23,753 nucleotides of DNA. It comes from a virus. This document shows positions 5,422 through 22,113 of this stretch, one piece after another. Under the pieces are notes generated by a model that saw nothing but the letters and a program-made list of their open reading frames with translations, was not told the DNA's origin and made no database searches. Position 1 is the stretch's first letter. Every line of letters starts with the position of its first letter. The translations under genes were made by a program, and so were the position numbers. The DNA lies in IMG/VR virus record IMGVR_UViG_3300047319_001385, positions 1-23,753 of that record. One strand, 5' to 3'.

Positions 5422-7355
5422 GCCTAGTCGAGGTCACAACCGATTACCCGATCGTCATCGCGGCCGACTCCGCGGCCGGCATCGTCGTGCTCTCGCCCGA
5501 TGACGTGGAGACGATCGCAACCGGCGAGCAAGGCCCGCCGGGGCCGGCGGGGCCGGCCGGCGGGCCGCCTGGACCGCCTGGACCGCCTGGACCGCAAGGG
5601 CCATTCGGCGGGCCGCCGGGGCCGCCGGGGCCGCAGGGAATTCAAGGGCCGGTTGGGCCAGCGGGACCGCAGGGCGCGGCTTCGACCGCGCCGGGGCCGC
5701 AGGGGCCGCCGGGGCCGCAAGGCCCCACGGGCGCGGCCTCGACCGTACCAGGGCCGCAGGGGCCGGCCGGCATACAAGGCCCGCAGGGCACGCCAGGTGC
5801 TCCGGGCGCCACCGGCGCCTCGGGCTCGCAGGGGCCGGCGGGACCGCAGGGGCCGGAGGGGCCACAGGGCAGTCCGGGAGCGGCATCCACGGTGCCGGGG
5901 CCAGCGGGGCCGGCCGGCAATACGGTGCTGTACGGAGCAACAAATCCGGTTGCCGGCACCGGCGTCGACGGCAACTTCTACATCAACACAACGACCGATT
6001 ATATTTTCGGGCCGAAGGCTGCCGGCGCGTGGCCGGCCGGCGCCTCGCTGATTGGGCCGCAAGGGCCGCAGGGCACCCAAGGCGTTGCCGGCAATACCAT
6101 TCTGTATAGCGCCGCCGACCCGAGCTCGGGCCAGGGCGTCGATGGCAATTTCTACATCAACACGACGAGCCACTTTCTATTTGGTCCGAAAGCCGGTGGC
6201 GCGTGGCCGGCCGGAACCTCGCTGGTAGGACCGCAGGGCATTCAAGGGCCGCAGGGCGTGCAAGGAGTTGCCGGCGCCGGCTCGCCCTCAACCATTCCGC
6301 CGCTTATGGACAGCACGGCGGCGGTTGGTACCTCAACCAATTTCAGCCGCGAGGATCACATCCATCCAAGCGACACGTCTCGCTATGCAGCCTCGAACCC
6401 AAATGGGTATCAGACAGCGGCGCAGGTTTCCGCCTCGCTCGGGTCGTATCTTCCGCTCATCGGCGGGACGCTGACCGGAACGCTCAACGGGACGGCCGCC
6501 ATATTCTCGGGCTCGTTACAAAGCGGCAGCACGATCGCCATGCAAGTGGCGACTGCCGGCATCGGCCATTCGATCCAAGCCAAAGTCGGGGCCAATAACC
6601 GCTGGGCTATGCTGATCGGTGACGGAGGGGCGGAAAGCGGTTCCAACGCCGGATCGAATTTCAGCATCAACAACTACACCGATGCTGGCGCGCCGATCGG
6701 CGCACCGTTTCAGATCATACGGTCGAATGGGCTCGCGCGGTTCAGCGGCTATGACGGTACGGTGCTCGGCGCATTCATCGCGATCGACGGGCCGGCTTCG
6801 CAACAGCGCGGGATTGCCGGCACCACTTCGGGCTCGGAGCGGTGGAACATGCTTCTCGGTTCAGCGGCAGCGGAAAGCGGCGGCAATGCCGGATCGAATT
6901 TTGTAATCAATAGCTATAGCGATGCTGGCGGCTATCTGGCGAGCCCGCTGCAGATCACGAGGTCGAGCGGCGTTGCCGCGTTCTCGCAGCCGATCGTCAA
7001 TGGTTCCGATCGCCGGATCAAATCAAATATTGAGCCGATAACGCAAGCATTGTCGATCGTCGCGAAGCTGCAAGGCGTGTTTTACCGGCATCAGGATGCG
7101 GTGAGGCGGCAAGTCGGACTTGTGGCGCAAGATGTGATCGGCCCTTTGCCGGAAGTTGTCTTCGATACGGGACAACCGCAAGATGCGCAAGGTAACGCGA
7201 TCGACGGCGAACCGCCCATGCTTGGGATCGCTTATCCAAACATGGTCGCGGTCTTGATCGAGGCGATAAAAGAACTGGCCTCCAAGGTCGCGGAGCTGGA
7301 AGCGCGGCCGACGCTGGTGGACGTCCTCGCAAAGATGACGAAGCCGCCGCCATGA
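5418..7355 (+). CDS. Collagen-like tail fibre with C-terminal S74 self-cleaving chaperone
   Basis: I start the 645-aa fibre at ATG 5418 (ATGA overlap) rather than 13 codons upstream. Residues 1-35 form a virion-binding head. Residues 37-167 are Gly-Pro-Pro/Gln collagen-like triplets broken by three GAAST inserts. About 168-285 holds two copies of a roughly 60-residue module containing [11 protein letters not shown] and [26 protein letters not shown] (309-322) is a common phage fibre motif. Two further beta repeats follow, around [11 protein letters not shown] (405-415) and [11 protein letters not shown] (485-495). The C-terminus is an intramolecular chaperone (peptidase S74) with the SDxRxK dyad intact: Ser530 and Lys535. 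By analogy with endosialidase fibres, the last 116 residues should be cleaved off after trimerisation. Confidence 0.9.
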
Positions 7356-11236: not shown

Positions 11237-11412
11237 CAGCCTTTTTCTTTTGTATGTCTTTGATATTATTATCGTTTTTTAGATTTAGGGACGCTCCCTC
11301 GGGGCGTATTAATGCTAAACTGAGCAATGCCTTAAGATGCGAGAAGCCTTTGATTTATCGGTAAAACAAGTGCATATGAGTGCATAGCCGTCCACCGCCG
11401 TGCATAGCCGTG

Positions 11413-11435
11413 TAGTGGACACTAAGTGGACACTG
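11413..11435 (+). repeat. Right copy of 23-bp direct repeat at integrase start
   Basis: This copy differs from the left one by one base (TGGACACTAAGTGGACAC core) and ends three bases before the integrase ATG at 11439. It is preceded by the 12-bp direct repeat GTGCATAGCCGT at 11380-11391 and 11400-11411, with a further GTGCATA at 11370. The pair spans 199 bp. Binding here by integrase would block its own translation start or promoter, so autoregulation is possible. Confidence 0.6.
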
Positions 11436-11438
11436 GAC

Positions 11439-12707
11439 ATGCCGAAGCCTCGAAACCCCAAGCTCGACAGCCCGACCGCCCGCGCCAAGCTGGCGCCCGC
11501 CAAGAAGCCGTATTGGACGACGATCGCGCCTGGCATCTCGCTCGGCTACCGCCGCAACGAGGGCGCCGGCACTTGGTCGGTTCGCGTAATCGGCCACGGG
11601 GCGACTTGGATCAAACGCCTTGCCATTGCCGACGACCTCGAGAAAGCCGCGCCGCCGACCGTCCTAGGCTACTGGCAGGCCCTCGAGGAGGCGAGGAAGC
11701 TCGCGCGACAGGAACCGGGCGCGCCGGTGGACGATAGCCGGCCGGTAACGGTGGGCGAGGCCCTCGACGGCTACGAGCTCGATCTCAAGGCGCGCGGGGC
11801 CGACATCGCGAATGTGCGGCGCCCTCGGAAGGCCATGCCGTCCGCGCTCCTGGAGAAGCCGGTGCAGCTTCTCACCGCCGGCGAGCTCAAGCGGTGGCGC
11901 AACAGCCTCGTCGGAGGCATAGCCTCAAAGGGCCGGGCGGCGGCCAGCGTCAACCGCATGGTCAAGGGGCTGCGCGCCGCGCTCGTCCAGGCCGGCGAAA
12001 ACGATCCGCGCATCCGCAATCAGGCCGAATTCAAGATCGGGCTCAAGCCGCTGCCGGGCGCCGGCCGGGCGCGCAACATCATCCTAACCGACACCGAGGT
12101 CCGCGCCTTCGTCGCCGCGGCCTATGCGCTCGATCCGGCGCTCGGGCTACTGTTCGACGTGTTGGCGGTCACCGGGACGCGGCCGTCGCAGGCCATCAGG
12201 CTTACGGTTGCCGATCTGCAAGCCGACCCGCGGTCGCCGCGGCTTCTGATCCCGCGCTCGGGCAAGGGTGGGAGCCGCGATCGGATCGAGCGCAAGCTGG
12301 AGCAAGTCCCGGTCCCGATCACGCTTGGCCTGGCGCACCGGCTGCAAGCCGCGGCCGCGGGCCGCCCGGCAACCGCGCTTCTGTTGTGCCAGGGCGACGG
12401 CTCGACTTGGCCGCGCGAGCCGCTGAAGCATTATAACCGCCGCAAGCTCGTCCAAAGCATCGGGCTCGATCCCGCCGAGGTCACGACCTACGCGCTGCGC
12501 CATTCGGCGATCGTCCGGCAATTGCTCGCCAACGTCCCGATCCGGCTCATCGCCGCGCAATGCGATACGTCGGTCGCCATGATCGAGAGCAACTATTCCA
12601 AGCACATCGCCTCGCACGGCGACGAGCTGTCCCGGCGCGGCTTGCTGGCCGACGAGGCGCCGGCCGACAACATCGTCGCATTCCAAAAAAAGGAAGTTGA
12701 TCGATGA
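11439..12707 (+). CDS. int: Tyrosine-family site-specific integrase
   Basis: The 422-aa recombinase inserts and excises the phage by cutting att sites through a covalent Tyr-DNA intermediate. An N-terminal arm-binding region (WSVRVIGHGATWIKRLAIAD, about 47-66) is followed by a SAM-like core-binding domain (about 100-190) and the catalytic domain. Visible catalytic positions are Arg248 in VTGTRPSQ, Arg354 in TYALRHS and the nucleophile Tyr386 in MIESNYSKH. The usual first His of HxxR is Tyr351, and the usual third-box His lies at about Cys375 (AAQCDTS). I start at ATG 11439, since the longer GTG 11400 start would encode the direct repeat. Its TGA overlaps the following ATG. Confidence 0.92.
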   Translation: MPKPRNPKLDSPTARAKLAPAKKPYWTTIAPGISLGYRRNEGAGTWSVRVIGHGATWIKRLAIADDLEKAAPPTVLGYWQALEEARKLARQEPGAPVDDSRPVTVGEALDGYELDLKARGADIANVRRPRKAMPSALLEKPVQLLTAGELKRWRNSLVGGIASKGRAAASVNRMVKGLRAALVQAGENDPRIRNQAEFKIGLKPLPGAGRARNIILTDTEVRAFVAAAYALDPALGLLFDVLAVTGTRPSQAIRLTVADLQADPRSPRLLIPRSGKGGSRDRIERKLEQVPVPITLGLAHRLQAAAAGRPATALLLCQGDGSTWPREPLKHYNRRKLVQSIGLDPAEVTTYALRHSAIVRQLLANVPIRLIAAQCDTSVAMIESNYSKHIASHGDELSRRGLLADEAPADNIVAFQKKEVDR

Positions 12708-16266: not shown

Positions 16267-16647
16267 TCATCGGTTGCATCTCCAGTACCTCCATCCGTTG
16301 GCTTTCGTGTACCAAGTGCGTCCGCGCGGGCCGCAGACCGGATCGGGCTCTGCGCCTGGACGCTTACAGTCGTCCCTACAGTTTGAAGCACGTCGGTTCG
16401 TGCTAGGCGTAGGCGCCGCCGGCTCGATGTGCTCGATCGCCACCGGCTTCGGCTGCGGCGCTTCGACCGGGAGCTCGGCGACCGCGGGCGTTGGCAGCGG
16501 CAGCCGATCGGACTTGCCTTCGGCTATGACGGGCGCCTGGCGCTCGCCGGATGCGGCGGGCGCGACTGCGGCGGGCCGGCCGATGTAGACGCCGAGCACC
16601 GCAGCGGTCACCGCGATCCCAAAGCTGGCTGCGCCAAGATGAGTCAT
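16267..16647 (-). CDS. Membrane-anchored Pro-rich protein with Cys-rich end (126 aa)
   Basis: I start at ATG 16647, coupled by ATGA to the HTH gene, because an earlier frame has no protein character. Residues 5-23 (GAASFGIAVTAAVLGVYIG) form a membrane anchor or uncleaved signal. A Pro/Ala-rich spacer (LPTPAVAELPVEAPQPKPVA) follows, and then a compact end with CRDDCKRPGAEPDPVCGPRG and WYTKANGWRYWRCNR. The C-terminal cysteines plus aromatics look like a small disulfide or SH3-like periplasmic module. An envelope function such as superinfection exclusion is possible but only inferred from topology. Confidence 0.6.
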   Translation of the reverse strand: MTHLGAASFGIAVTAAVLGVYIGRPAAVAPAASGERQAPVIAEGKSDRLPLPTPAVAELPVEAPQPKPVAIEHIEPAAPTPSTNRRASNCRDDCKRPGAEPDPVCGPRGRTWYTKANGWRYWRCNR

Positions 16648-16847
16648 GTCATTTGCTGGACTGCTTGCCGCAACTTGCTGCGCGAGGCGACAAGAACTTT
16701 TCCGAGCTTGCCGATCGGCAATAGGTTGGCGCGATACAAGCGATAGATCGTGCCCTTGCTCATTCCCAATTCCGTGGCGATCGCATCGGCTCCAATGAGC
16801 AGATCGTCGGCGAGGCTCGCGTTGTTGCTGTCGGTGTCGGAGGTCAC
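16644..16847 (-). CDS. Excisionase/MerR-like HTH protein (67 aa)
   Basis: The product holds a compact winged-helix HTH: LLIGADAIATELGMSKGTIY (16-35), then RLYRANLLPIGKLGKVLVAS (36-55), and a RSKLRQAVQQ helix. This order (helix-turn-helix followed by a beta wing with GK) is typical of HTH_17/excisionase-type DNA-binding proteins. It is translationally coupled to another HTH gene upstream and to the membrane protein downstream by 4-bp overlaps. It could act as Xis for the integrase or as a regulator of the operon. Which of these applies cannot be read from the sequence. Confidence 0.75.
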   Translation of the reverse strand: MTSDTDSNNASLADDLLIGADAIATELGMSKGTIYRLYRANLLPIGKLGKVLVASRSKLRQAVQQMT

Positions 16848-17062
16848 TTGGCGTTCCCCTCATGCTCCCGGCGCCATTGATCGGCGGCCTCCATCGAAAT
16901 TACGATGTGAACCCCAAATCGCATCTCGCGTGGCCCGAGTCCTTGTCGCCGCAGGATATAATAGAGGCTCCTGCTTATCCCGAAGGCTTTGCAGAATTCA
17001 TCGATGGTCAAAGCGAGCCGCGGGCTCGCCTTTTCCTTTTGTTGTTGGTTCGAGCGCGCCAT
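16844..17062 (-). CDS. AlpA/excisionase-like HTH protein (72 aa)
   Basis: I use ATG 17062, which overlaps the upstream TAA by one base (TAATG). The N-terminus is basic (ARSNQQQKEKASPR). It is followed by LTIDEFCKAFGISRSLYYIL (17-36), RRQGLGPREMRFGVHIVISM and EAADQWRREHE. The helix-turn-helix then wing pattern matches HTH_17 or AlpA-like phage regulators. It shares fold but little sequence with the 67-aa protein directly downstream, so the two may form a pair acting on neighbouring sites. Regulatory target unknown. Confidence 0.75.
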   Translation of the reverse strand: MARSNQQQKEKASPRLALTIDEFCKAFGISRSLYYILRRQGLGPREMRFGVHIVISMEAADQWRREHEGNAK

Positions 17063-17916
17063 TATCTCGGCATGTCCTCTGCCGCCCCGGTCGGGGAGCT
17101 CTCGGCGGTCGCCGGCTGCGGCGCGGGCTGCTCGAGCGGCGGAAAGACCTCGTCGGTGGTCGCCATGCCATCGGCGATGCTTTTCATCATGGCGATGACC
17201 TGGGCGATGTCGGGCGCCAGCCAATCCTTGGCCGAGCGGCCGACCGTGCGCTCGACCCGGTTGACCGCGACCGGAATGCGAGCGAGGCCGTCGAGCGTGC
17301 GCTGCCGGTAGTTCGCCAGGTCTTTGCCGATCTTATCCACGAGCGAGTTGCGCGCGTGCTCGAAAGCGTAATCGGCATAAATCTGGAGGCTGTTGACGAT
17401 GCAGTTGCGGATACTTTTGCTTTGCCCAATTTGGTAGGCGATATCCAATTGGCGCTCTGCGTCCTTAGTCTTCATCGAGCCTTGCGATTTGCGCTGGCGG
17501 TAGGCGCGCTCCATCGAGAAGCCGGTCTCGATGTCGGTAAATCGCGCATAGAAGACCCAAGCGTCGCCGACATCGATCTCGCGGACTTCGTTTATGTTGT
17601 TGCCGAAGATGCGGGCTACGTCGTTGGCGAGCTTGATGCTCGGCCCTTCGATCCAGTCTTGCCCGCCATCCTTTTTTTTGACCGGGAAGCGATAAAACCA
17701 GTCGTTGCCGGCGGCGGCGGCGAGTTGGACGAGCTTCTGTAGGATCTTCGCTTCGTCGCGATGCACGGCGACGAGTTGCGCGCCGACGATGCGATCGGCG
17801 AGACCGGTGGTCGGGCGCACCAATGAGTGGCCGCTGGGGATAGGCTGATTTGGTTGCGCACCGGCATTGGCAAACGCCTCAAGGTCATGCGTGCGTTGGG
17901 TGATCTCGTTGGTCAT
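17062..17916 (-). CDS. Probable single-strand-annealing recombinase partner of YqaJ
   Basis: The 284-aa protein starts at ATG 17916 with GGATGA upstream. Key segments are WFYRFPVKKKDGGQDWIEGP (73-92), SIKLANDVARIFGN (93-106), ARFTDIETGFSMERAYR (124-140) and AERQLDIAYQIGQSKSIRNC (154-173) with IVNSLQIYADYAFEHA. The EGPS.KLA..A.A..GN and repeat-helix order resembles phage proteins found next to recombination exonucleases, and the helix after 154 resembles the conserved helix of Erf/Rad52-like annealing proteins. The same operon encodes the YqaJ exonuclease, the usual partner that makes ssDNA for annealing. The C-terminus is Pro/Ala-rich and disordered. The role is inferred, as no decisive family signature is visible. 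Confidence 0.5.
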   Translation of the reverse strand: MTNEITQRTHDLEAFANAGAQPNQPIPSGHSLVRPTTGLADRIVGAQLVAVHRDEAKILQKLVQLAAAAGNDWFYRFPVKKKDGGQDWIEGPSIKLANDVARIFGNNINEVREIDVGDAWVFYARFTDIETGFSMERAYRQRKSQGSMKTKDAERQLDIAYQIGQSKSIRNCIVNSLQIYADYAFEHARNSLVDKIGKDLANYRQRTLDGLARIPVAVNRVERTVGRSAKDWLAPDIAQVIAMMKSIADGMATTDEVFPPLEQPAPQPATAESSPTGAAEDMPR

Positions 17917-18413
17917 GCTTTCATCCTTTGCTGGTTGTGCCTCTGTTCGATAGAGGTTGCCCATCGGCAATTGGTGGGCTCGTAATTTCCGTTACCGTTG
18001 ATCCGATCGAGCGAATGCCCTGGAGGCCGCTCTCCCATATCGGCGAGGAAGTTTTCGAAACGCTCCCAACGTGGGCAGACTTTAATTCCGCGTCCACCAT
18101 AGAATTCGAAGCCGTTTGTAGCAGGGTGCGTGCATCGACCGCGCATCGCGAGCCATGATCGATATGTTGGTGACGCCTTCCCGTTAATCCAATGACCGTG
18201 TGTCTTTGAATTGCGCCCACGCTCGACAGCCCATTCACGATGAAAGCATCCGCAGGACTGACTGTTGCCTGTTCGTAGATTTGAACCTGTGGTGATAATC
18301 TCTCGGCCGCAGTCGCAGCGGCAATGCCAGACTCTCTTTCCGTTTTTAGTGCCAGCGAGGTTTATTACGGTGAGGCGTCCAAATCGCTCGCCGGCAAGAT
18401 TGATCGGTCTCAT
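17913..18413 (-). CDS. HNH/homing-endonuclease-like protein (166 aa)
   Basis: The N-terminal half has INLAGERFGRLTVI (4-17) and CRCDCGREIITTGSNLRTGN ending SCGC (about 32-56), a Cys zinc-binding region. The C-terminal half has YRSWLAMRGRCTHPATNG, FYGGRGIKVCPRWERFENF, and SLDRINGNGNYEPTNCRWAT. These motifs are typical of AP2-associated or HNH-type phage homing endonucleases, which cut DNA and spread within phage genomes. AAGGAAGG precedes the ATG. It sits between two recombination genes with a 31-bp gap upstream but ATGA coupling downstream, so any insertion has been tightly fitted to the operon. Nuclease activity is not shown by a full catalytic set. Confidence 0.75.
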   Translation of the reverse strand: MRPINLAGERFGRLTVINLAGTKNGKRVWHCRCDCGREIITTGSNLRTGNSQSCGCFHREWAVERGRNSKTHGHWINGKASPTYRSWLAMRGRCTHPATNGFEFYGGRGIKVCPRWERFENFLADMGERPPGHSLDRINGNGNYEPTNCRWATSIEQRHNQQRMKA

Positions 18414-18444: not shown

Positions 18445-18666
18445 TTAGCTTATGAGGCGGGCCGGGCGCGCGGGCGGTCGTCGCGCGGCGGACCCGAGTT
18501 GCACCGGGAGCGAGGCGACCGCATTCGATTGGCGTTTGCGCTTGCGCAGATCGGGCCAGACCTTGCTAGGCGCCGCGGGCGTGGCGACCGTCACCGGCAC
18601 GGGCTCGGCCCGGTATTGCTCGAGCTCGCGGCGCCAGGCTTTGGCGCGGTCCCCTCGCGGCTTCAT
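18445..18666 (-). CDS. 73-aa basic protein, unknown
   Basis: The start is ATG 18666, overlapping the YqaJ stop by 4 bp. The product is basic and Pro/Arg-rich: KPRGDRAKAWRRELEQYRAE (2-21), then PVPVTVATPAAPSKVWPDLR and a RRPPARPARLIS end. There is no domain I know. The charge pattern suggests a nucleic-acid-binding or protein-bridging peptide working with YqaJ, but the evidence is position only. GC-rich coding sequence of this type also gives false ORFs, so confidence is moderate. Confidence 0.5.
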   Translation of the reverse strand: MKPRGDRAKAWRRELEQYRAEPVPVTVATPAAPSKVWPDLRKRKRQSNAVASLPVQLGSAARRPPARPARLIS

Positions 18667-19601
18667 GCGCGCGACTCCTTGAGCACGCGCAGCACGCGAT
18701 AGGTCGAGGCTTCGACTGCGTATGCCTTTCGGCTTTGCTGCTTCCATGATAGCCGGCGGCCATCGGCCAGGCGCCCGTAGGTGTGCGCGCCGAGCTTGCC
18801 TATCAGCTCGGTCTTGAGCGCGGTCTCGGTCGCGTTCAACCGCTTTAGCGCGGCCTGCGTTTCGGTGAGCTCGTCCACGGCAACGAGCGCGCGGTTGTCT
18901 GTCGTCAGATCGATCTCGGTCCCGTCGTCGGCCGGATACAAGTGTTTAATCAGGCGCTCGTCCCGCTGCGGTTGGAAAACGGGCATGATGTTAGGGTCGA
19001 GGCTATCGCGCCAGAAAGCCGCGACATCGTCGAGGATCGCTTCCTCGATCACGGGGTCGCGCTCGACATCAATCAAATGAAAATCCCAGCCGAATTCGCC
19101 AACGACCAAAGCGACGACCGATGCCCAGCGGCATTCGGCGAGCATTGCAGTCGTGAGCACTTGGAGGAGGTAGTGCGGAGGCACGCGCGGCTCGCTGTCT
19201 TCGGCGTCATCGAGCCATCTCTCGCGAAAGACGCTACGCGCGACGGTCTTTGCCTCGACCAGACCAATCCCTTCGCGATCGGGCCGGAAAGCAAAGCCGT
19301 CCGGCGTGGCCGCGATCCGGCGTTCGCGATCGATCAGATGGATGGCGGCGCGCTGAAGTTGCCATTCCGGCCGCATGTCGGCGAGCGCCTGGAACGCGGA
19401 TGCTTCGCCCCAGCGACCGCGCCGCATGACCGCGTTGTCGATCTGCGGCGGGCGCAATCCCTTCTTTTCCGCGAACAATTGCGCGGCGCTGCCGTAGAGC
19501 GCGACGCCGCAGACGGTTGCGACCTCGCTCGCGTTGATGAATTGCGGGCGGACGCCGAGCCAATCGTAGTCCGGGGTAATGGAGATCCGTTCGACAGCCA
19601 T
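18663..19601 (-). CDS. YqaJ-family viral recombinase exonuclease
   Basis: The 312-aa protein opens the minus-strand early operon. Its core matches the YqaJ/lambda-exonuclease fold: INASEVATVCGVALYGSAAQ (22-41), then MRRGRWGEASAFQALADM (59-76) with Glu66, ATPDGFAF with Asp101, and GLVEAKTVARSVF with Glu116 and Lys118 (ExK). The PHYLLQVLTTAMLAE helix (142-156) carries the conserved Gln147. These residues form a PD-(D/E)XK two-metal active site that resects dsDNA 5'-3'. The remaining C-terminal 120 residues are helical. AGGGGA lies 9 bp before the ATG. It likely works with the protein at 17062-17916 in phage recombination or replication. Confidence 0.88.
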   Translation of the reverse strand: MAVERISITPDYDWLGVRPQFINASEVATVCGVALYGSAAQLFAEKKGLRPPQIDNAVMRRGRWGEASAFQALADMRPEWQLQRAAIHLIDRERRIAATPDGFAFRPDREGIGLVEAKTVARSVFRERWLDDAEDSEPRVPPHYLLQVLTTAMLAECRWASVVALVVGEFGWDFHLIDVERDPVIEEAILDDVAAFWRDSLDPNIMPVFQPQRDERLIKHLYPADDGTEIDLTTDNRALVAVDELTETQAALKRLNATETALKTELIGKLGAHTYGRLADGRRLSWKQQSRKAYAVEASTYRVLRVLKESRA

Positions 19602-21365: not shown

Positions 21366-21568
21366 CCGACGTCCTCGCCCTCGCCCAATTCACCGCCGCG
21401 GAGAAGCACCGCGAGGCGCTGCGCGAGCTGGCAATGCGCAAGCGGCTTTACCCGCGATGGGTCGAGAAAGGCGCGATGACCGCGAAGGATGCCGCGCAGA
21501 AGATCGCGATCATCGAAGCGATCGCGGCGGACTACGGGAAGTTCGCTGAGAAAGAGCGGCTCATATGA
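21362..21568 (+). CDS. 68-aa helical phage protein, unknown
   Basis: The ATGA-coupled frame encodes AAEKHREALRELAMRKRLYP (residues 12-31), then RWVEKGAMTAKDAAQKIAII and EAIAADYGKFAEKE. The pattern of M.KR.YP.WV..G.M....A..KI.I.EAI..DY is one I know from small conserved phage proteins placed between recombination and replication genes, with no assigned role. Helical character throughout suggests a small scaffold or adaptor. It overlaps the RuvC-like gene by 4 bp. Confidence 0.7.
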   Translation: MTDVLALAQFTAAEKHREALRELAMRKRLYPRWVEKGAMTAKDAAQKIAIIEAIAADYGKFAEKERLI

Positions 21569-22113
21569 CCAACGTGTTGGCATTGGATTTGGCCACCGTT
21601 ACTGGCTATGCGCGCGGCGAGGTCGGCGGCAGGCCCGTCGCCGGCTCGATCCGCTTCGGCACGCGCGAGTCGGGCGACGGCGAGGTCTTCGGCCATGCCA
21701 TCGGCTGGTTTAGCAAGCTGATCGCGATGCAGCCGCGGCCGGACGTCATCGTGGTCGAGGCCATGCTGCCGCCCGGCGCCAAGGTGGGGGCAACCAATTC
21801 GAGCACGCGCGACCGGCTTGCCGGCCTGCACGCCATCGTCCGCGGCGTCGCACACATCCGCGGCGCCGGCGAGATCGCCTGCTATTCGGTCGGCGACATC
21901 CGGCATCATTTCATCGGCGAGCGCAGCTTGCGGCGCGCGCAGGCCAAGCAGGCGATCGTCTTGCGCTGCGAGATGCTCGGCTGGCAGGTGGTCGATAATA
22001 ATGCGGCAGATGCATGTGCCGCCTGGTCCTTCGCCTGCTCGATCATCGACCCGACGCAGGCGCTCAAGGTGTCGCCGCTGTTCAACAAGCAACTGCGGGT
22101 GCATGTGCAATGA
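21565..22113 (+). CDS. RuvC-like Holliday junction resolvase
   Basis: The 182-aa protein starts NVLALDLATVTGYARGEV, the RNase H-like first strand with Asp8. PRPDVIVVEAMLPPGAKVG gives Glu65, and DNNAADACAAWSFAC gives Asp144 and Asp149. These are the acidic positions of RuvC-type two-metal nucleases. KQAIVLRCEMLGWQVV separates the last two motifs as expected. The enzyme would cut four-way junctions made during recombination-dependent replication or packaging. Its neighbours (PD-(D/E)XK nuclease, ATPase, YqaJ operon) support that setting. ATGA overlaps occur on both sides. Confidence 0.85.
   Translation: MTNVLALDLATVTGYARGEVGGRPVAGSIRFGTRESGDGEVFGHAIGWFSKLIAMQPRPDVIVVEAMLPPGAKVGATNSSTRDRLAGLHAIVRGVAHIRGAGEIACYSVGDIRHHFIGERSLRRAQAKQAIVLRCEMLGWQVVDNNAADACAAWSFACSIIDPTQALKVSPLFNKQLRVHVQ

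Follow-up and report, generated by a model that had tools for sequence, protein, structure and literature searches.

A predicted Rad52-superfamily annealing protein of the phrog_3657 family, encoded with a YqaJ exonuclease in a 23.7-kb virus record

The minus-strand gene at 17062-17916 of IMG/VR virus record IMGVR_UViG_3300047319_001385 very probably codes for a Rad52-superfamily single-strand annealing protein (SSAP) that works without RecA and has a sequence family of its own, PHROG 3657 (phrog_3657); its function is a prediction, supported at the level of modelled fold and gene context. We further consider it likely that phrog_3657 stands alongside Rad52, Erf, Sak3, RecT, and Red-beta as an additional family within the Rad52 annealase superfamily, that it is common to alphaproteobacterial and actinobacterial phages, and that its partner is either a YqaJ or a DUF3799 exonuclease. 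The PHROGs library lists phrog_3657 as "unknown function", and a function is proposed for it here.

The stretch analyzed (the window; 23,753 nucleotides, positions 1 to 23,753 of the record) carries tail genes at its left and an integrase gene at 11400-12707; a cluster of leftward genes spans about 19601-16644. The gene under study consists of 284 codons and a stop codon, open throughout, with an ATG at 17916 preceded by an AGGA ribosome-binding site (17924-17927) and a 7-base spacer (together 17917-17927, minus strand). Comparison with eight close relatives gave dN/dS values of 0.12-0.21, which indicates that the frame is under purifying selection, and the frame is also kept in independent contigs. 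The two motifs quoted in an earlier sequence-only reading are both in place (EGPSIKLANDVARIFGN at residues 90-106 and QIGQSKSIRNCIVNSL at residues 162-177). With its open frame, ribosome-binding site, and conservation, the gene is real. Directly downstream of it, two adjacent genes (16644-16847 and 16844-17224, minus strand) encode small helix-turn-helix proteins with HTH_17 and weak excisionase PHROG matches. Other genes in the window encode a tail fibre that has collagen-like repeats and, at its C terminus, a Peptidase_S74 (endosialidase chaperone) domain (5424-7352, plus strand), a Dam-type adenine methyltransferase (PF05869; 19819-20808, plus strand), and a RuvC-like Holliday junction resolvase (phrog_159; 21565-22113, plus strand).

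The 284-aa protein matches phrog_3657 with an E-value of 2e-40 over residues 50-272, which take in the core. Pfam and NCBIfam searches gave no significant match, and when Pfam and PHROGs were searched at E-values up to 10, the sole reports besides phrog_3657 were two Pfam models at chance level. We collected 106 homologous proteins from viral and genome contigs, reduced to 55 by dereplication at 70%; every one of the 55 aligned relatives matches phrog_3657. They fall into two branches, one from alphaproteobacterial phages (42-100% identity to the 284-aa protein) and one from actinobacterial phages (about 18-26%), whose cores are joined at about 97% probability in profile-profile comparison. 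The earlier remark that the motif-bearing helix recurs in phage proteins from comparable gene contexts is borne out by these homologues across viral contigs; the lineage, which that reading expected to be useful for classifying alphaproteobacterial phages, is not specific to them, its diversity in actinobacterial phages being no smaller. The family is uncommon in cellular genomes: with the centre genome counted in each class, a member was found in 3 of 198 genomes of the class of one actinobacterial member and in 2 of 190 genomes of the class of one alphaproteobacterial member, and in 4 of 398 genomes of the latter's phylum. Our literature search found no paper naming phrog_3657 and no experimentally examined member.

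Outside the core the proteins are less uniform, and the tails vary between subgroups. Close relatives (L004, L009, L010, L019, and others) are longer at the C terminus by about 80-100 residues, an extension that includes an R/G/P-containing motif and is absent from the 284-aa protein and its nearest relatives L003 and L014. Two family members match ribosome modulation factor (PF04957; best E-value 0.002). Three copies are found in one genome of Streptomyces filamentosus (L118, L119, and L123). Two of these lie in inverted orientation near opposite ends of one 185-kb contig, and this placement suggests a linear element with inverted terminal repeats.

The gene context points to a recombination role. 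At 18663-19601 (minus strand) the window encodes a 312-aa YqaJ/RecE-like recombination exonuclease (PF09588, E-value 2.1e-12; phrog_434, E-value 1.6e-53), with the PD-(D/E)XK residues discernible as ATPDG...LVEAKT, in agreement with the earlier statement that the protein is encoded together with a YqaJ exonuclease. Here the two genes do not abut, since an HNH endonuclease gene (phrog_374, E-value 9e-64; 17913-18413, minus strand) separates them, its TGA overlapping the ATG of the 284-aa protein gene. A related HNH gene occupies the equivalent site in only 3 of 49 alpha-type loci (one of the three, L026, has an identical protein) and the exonuclease and annealing-protein genes abut in several relatives; the HNH gene looks like a mobile insertion. 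YqaJ is encoded upstream on the same strand, often directly adjacent, in 46 of the 49 alpha-type loci, or 23 of 25 after dereplication. Among the 32 remaining dereplicated loci (30 of the actinobacterial branch plus two others), 26 have a DUF3799 (PD-(D/E)XK) gene upstream, and in annotated actinophages the neighboring gene is named RecE or exonuclease VIII. Most loci of the family show the adjoining, same-strand exonuclease gene of a two-gene exonuclease/annealing module. None of the 46 phage records carrying the family has a match to the RecT, Erf, or Rad52 Pfam families (0/46 for each), an absence that is supportive, not conclusive, because several of these records are fragments. The overall pattern is the one that an annealing-protein gene would show as a component of a two-gene recombination module.

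At two loci, L055 (3252-3998) and L109 (2587-3663), YqaJ/DUF3799 is replaced by upstream proteins that share about 35% identity, that of L055 being without a Pfam match. These may represent a third type of partner.

Sequence comparison does not place the family in RecT, Erf, or Rad52. Even at an E-value of 10, the Pfam scan of the 284-aa protein gave no RecT, ERF, Rad52, or DUF1071 match, consistent with the earlier observation that it has none of the strong signatures of annealing proteins. The RecT (PF03837), ERF (PF04404), and Rad52_Rad22 (PF04098) profiles are not matched, each with an hhalign probability below 1%, and no profile match to Sak3/DUF1071, Gp2.5, or Sak4 was obtained in Pfam or PHROGs. 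Comparing either the complete family alignment or its core by hhalign with Rad52, RecT, and Erf alignments gave nothing, and when the core was scored by HMMER with models built here for Rad52, Erf, and RecT, it did no better than shuffled controls. (For the Rad52 comparison set, a single-sequence scan of viral contigs yielded one locus, and an alignment was required.) With the same profiles Rad52, Erf, and RecT likewise miss one another in hhalign, so the negative result bears on the family and not on the superfamily. The profile-profile comparison proposed in the sequence-only reading ties the family to none of Rad52, RecT, and Erf in particular. By eye, the family's DWIEG..IKLAN..RIFGN can be likened to DYIEGW.AIREAN.IFGF at the same place in Rad52; this visual likeness between DWIEGPSIKLANDVARIFGN and the Rad52 block DYIEGW..IREAN.IFGF is collinear with the fold and statistically not significant. 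A "RecT-like" match to phrog_4171 in 10 members was rejected as a direct link, since it covers only the variable C-terminal tail and not the core, as judged on members displayed individually.

We then turned to the predicted structures. The Rad52 superfamily is characterized by a three-stranded antiparallel sheet crossed by helix alpha3, against which alpha2 packs, together with a beta-hairpin and alpha1 (PMC9870868). An AlphaFold2 model of the 284-aa protein, made from a 55-sequence alignment, has a mean pLDDT of 86.5, rising to 90-98 over most of the core, whose elements in order are helix 55-73, strands 74-80 and 86-92, helix 94-104, strands 107-115, 119-128, and 134-142, and helix 153-176. 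The model of an actinobacterial member, built from a mostly actinobacterial alignment (pLDDT 90.4), has the same core order with short extra strands before alpha3. By order of secondary structure, all five elements (alpha1, beta-hairpin, alpha2, three-stranded sheet, alpha3) occur in sequence in both models. In the order of its elements the predicted fold is not the unrelated one that the sequence-only reading named as a refuter.

When the fold was searched with Foldseek against predicted viral structures, ranks 1-5 were apparent family members (E-values 1e-12 to 5e-8), and at ranks 6-50 all 21 functionally named matches were Rad52, Erf, or RecT, at E-values of 1e-3 to 4e-2 and low TM-scores (about 0.15-0.36). 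The clear match to a non-recombination family that could have overturned the sequence-only reading did not appear. Against solved structures (PDB), Foldseek found nothing significant with either model. The only SSAP in the list for the 284-aa protein is 80alpha Sak (8qe9; rank 22, E-value 0.51), and the list for the actinobacterial model contains no SSAP. The top PDB matches, phosphatases and porphobilinogen deaminase, were rejected as chance (E-values above 0.1, TM-scores about 0.2). Weak structural matches would be expected in this superfamily, since even a superposition of LiRecT on RAD52, which are 14% identical over it, covers 83 residues at no better than 5.5 A (PMC9772228).

These fold neighbors also bear on how the protein might otherwise be explained. 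The narrowest alternative is a version of the Rad52-superfamily assignment itself, with overlapping confidence: a true RecT/Red-beta member that has drifted beyond recognition. It gains from the RecT or RecT-like annotations of relatives in Gordonia, in Mycobacterium Sparky, and in prophiGD43A-5, from the RecE type of the partner, and from the phrog_4171 resemblance in some tails; we regard it as unlikely in view of the unmatched RecT profile, the plain layout of beta-hairpin and three strands, and the named viral matches, which are mostly Erf and Rad52 with just one RecT. Less probable still is a replicative ssDNA-binding protein of SSB or Gp2.5 type, which would coat strands and aid the exonuclease without catalyzing annealing. 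The "ssDNA binding protein" label on some actinophage relatives and the position linked to the exonuclease would suit such a protein, but it matches no SSB or Gp2.5 family, its predicted helix-hairpin-helix-sheet-helix with long helices is not a beta-barrel, its named fold neighbors are SSAPs, and the exonuclease-bearing records would be left without any detected SSAP. That the protein is an accessory or nuclease-control factor of the YqaJ exonuclease (end-binding or Gam-like) and not a recombinase is very improbable, for all the strict exonuclease linkage, given its Rad52-superfamily layout and fold neighbors and its retention when the partner switches between YqaJ and the DUF3799 nuclease.

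Conservation within the family is compatible with a Rad52-superfamily annealing protein. The most conserved block, EGPSIKLANDVARIFGN (17599-17649, minus strand), covers the end of strand beta2 and helix alpha2 in the model, with G91, P92, S93, and L96 invariant among the 55 members. Helix alpha3 (residues 153-176; 17389-17460, minus strand) contains QIGQSKSIRNCIVN with K167 and R170; R170 is present in 100% of the family alignment and position 167 is basic in 98%. Residues R53, R102, G105, N106, D128, and W232 are also among those that are invariant or nearly so, and the most conserved columns fall on alpha2 (block 91-106) and alpha3. In LiRecT and RAD52 conservation is highest at the alpha2-alpha3 interface, and the inner DNA strand is contacted from alpha3 by K206, R210, N211, and S214 of LiRecT and by T148, K152, R153, and R156 of RAD52 (PMC9772228). 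The invariant R170 on the modelled alpha3 fits the known DNA-binding face, and by position it may correspond to R210/K152.

On the combined evidence we infer DNA binding, oligomerization, annealing, and physical coupling to the exonuclease. In the mechanism we propose, the YqaJ exonuclease would resect double-strand ends of phage DNA, and the annealing protein would oligomerize on the strand so exposed, gripping its backbone in a groove formed by the beta1-beta2 hairpin, alpha2, and the basic alpha3 (K167, R170). The strand held in this way could then be annealed to a complementary one, with recombination, repair, or the formation of concatemers as the outcome while the phage replicates.

Among known systems, phrog_3657 shares with Rad52/Rad22 and Erf (the Rad52/22-Erf-Sak3 superfamily) the five fold elements in order, and these supply most of its named fold neighbors, without significant sequence similarity. 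The gene neighborhoods differ: the usual neighbor of erf, rad52, and sak3 genes in Firmicutes is ssb (PMC8093625), whereas the phrog_3657 family adjoins an exonuclease. The operon logic of exonuclease plus annealing protein and the basic residue on alpha3 are RecT/Red-beta-like; the unmatched profile and the single RecT among the fold matches are not. Precedents by name are Mutzi gp54, Sparky gp57, and prophiGD43A-5 gp17 ("RecT-like ssDNA binding"), which belong to the same family by tblastn and alignment, are 23-26% identical to the 284-aa protein with different tails, and adjoin a RecE-like exonuclease, the usual partner in this actinophage branch being of DUF3799 type versus YqaJ here. Annotated actinophages call members "RecT", "RecT-like ssDNA binding protein", or "hypothetical". 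The distinct annealing-protein lineage proposed in the sequence-only reading is supported as to its own family, predicted fold, and exonuclease pairing, and corrected as to rank: it is a distinct, unnamed lineage inside a known superfamily, not a new kind, and some of its actinophage relatives already bear a RecT-like label.

A 2024 structural survey of annealases, based on five families, pointed to thousands of candidates that lack annotation and anticipated further unannotated families; the phrog_3657 family is not named in its available text (PMC11783212). If the prediction is correct, a family of "unknown function" would receive one, and phages infecting rhizobia and actinobacteria would have the missing partner of their exonuclease identified. 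The family would also provide candidate annealing proteins for recombineering where existing host tools are limited, and a divergent point from which the kinship of Rad52, Erf, and RecT may be traced.
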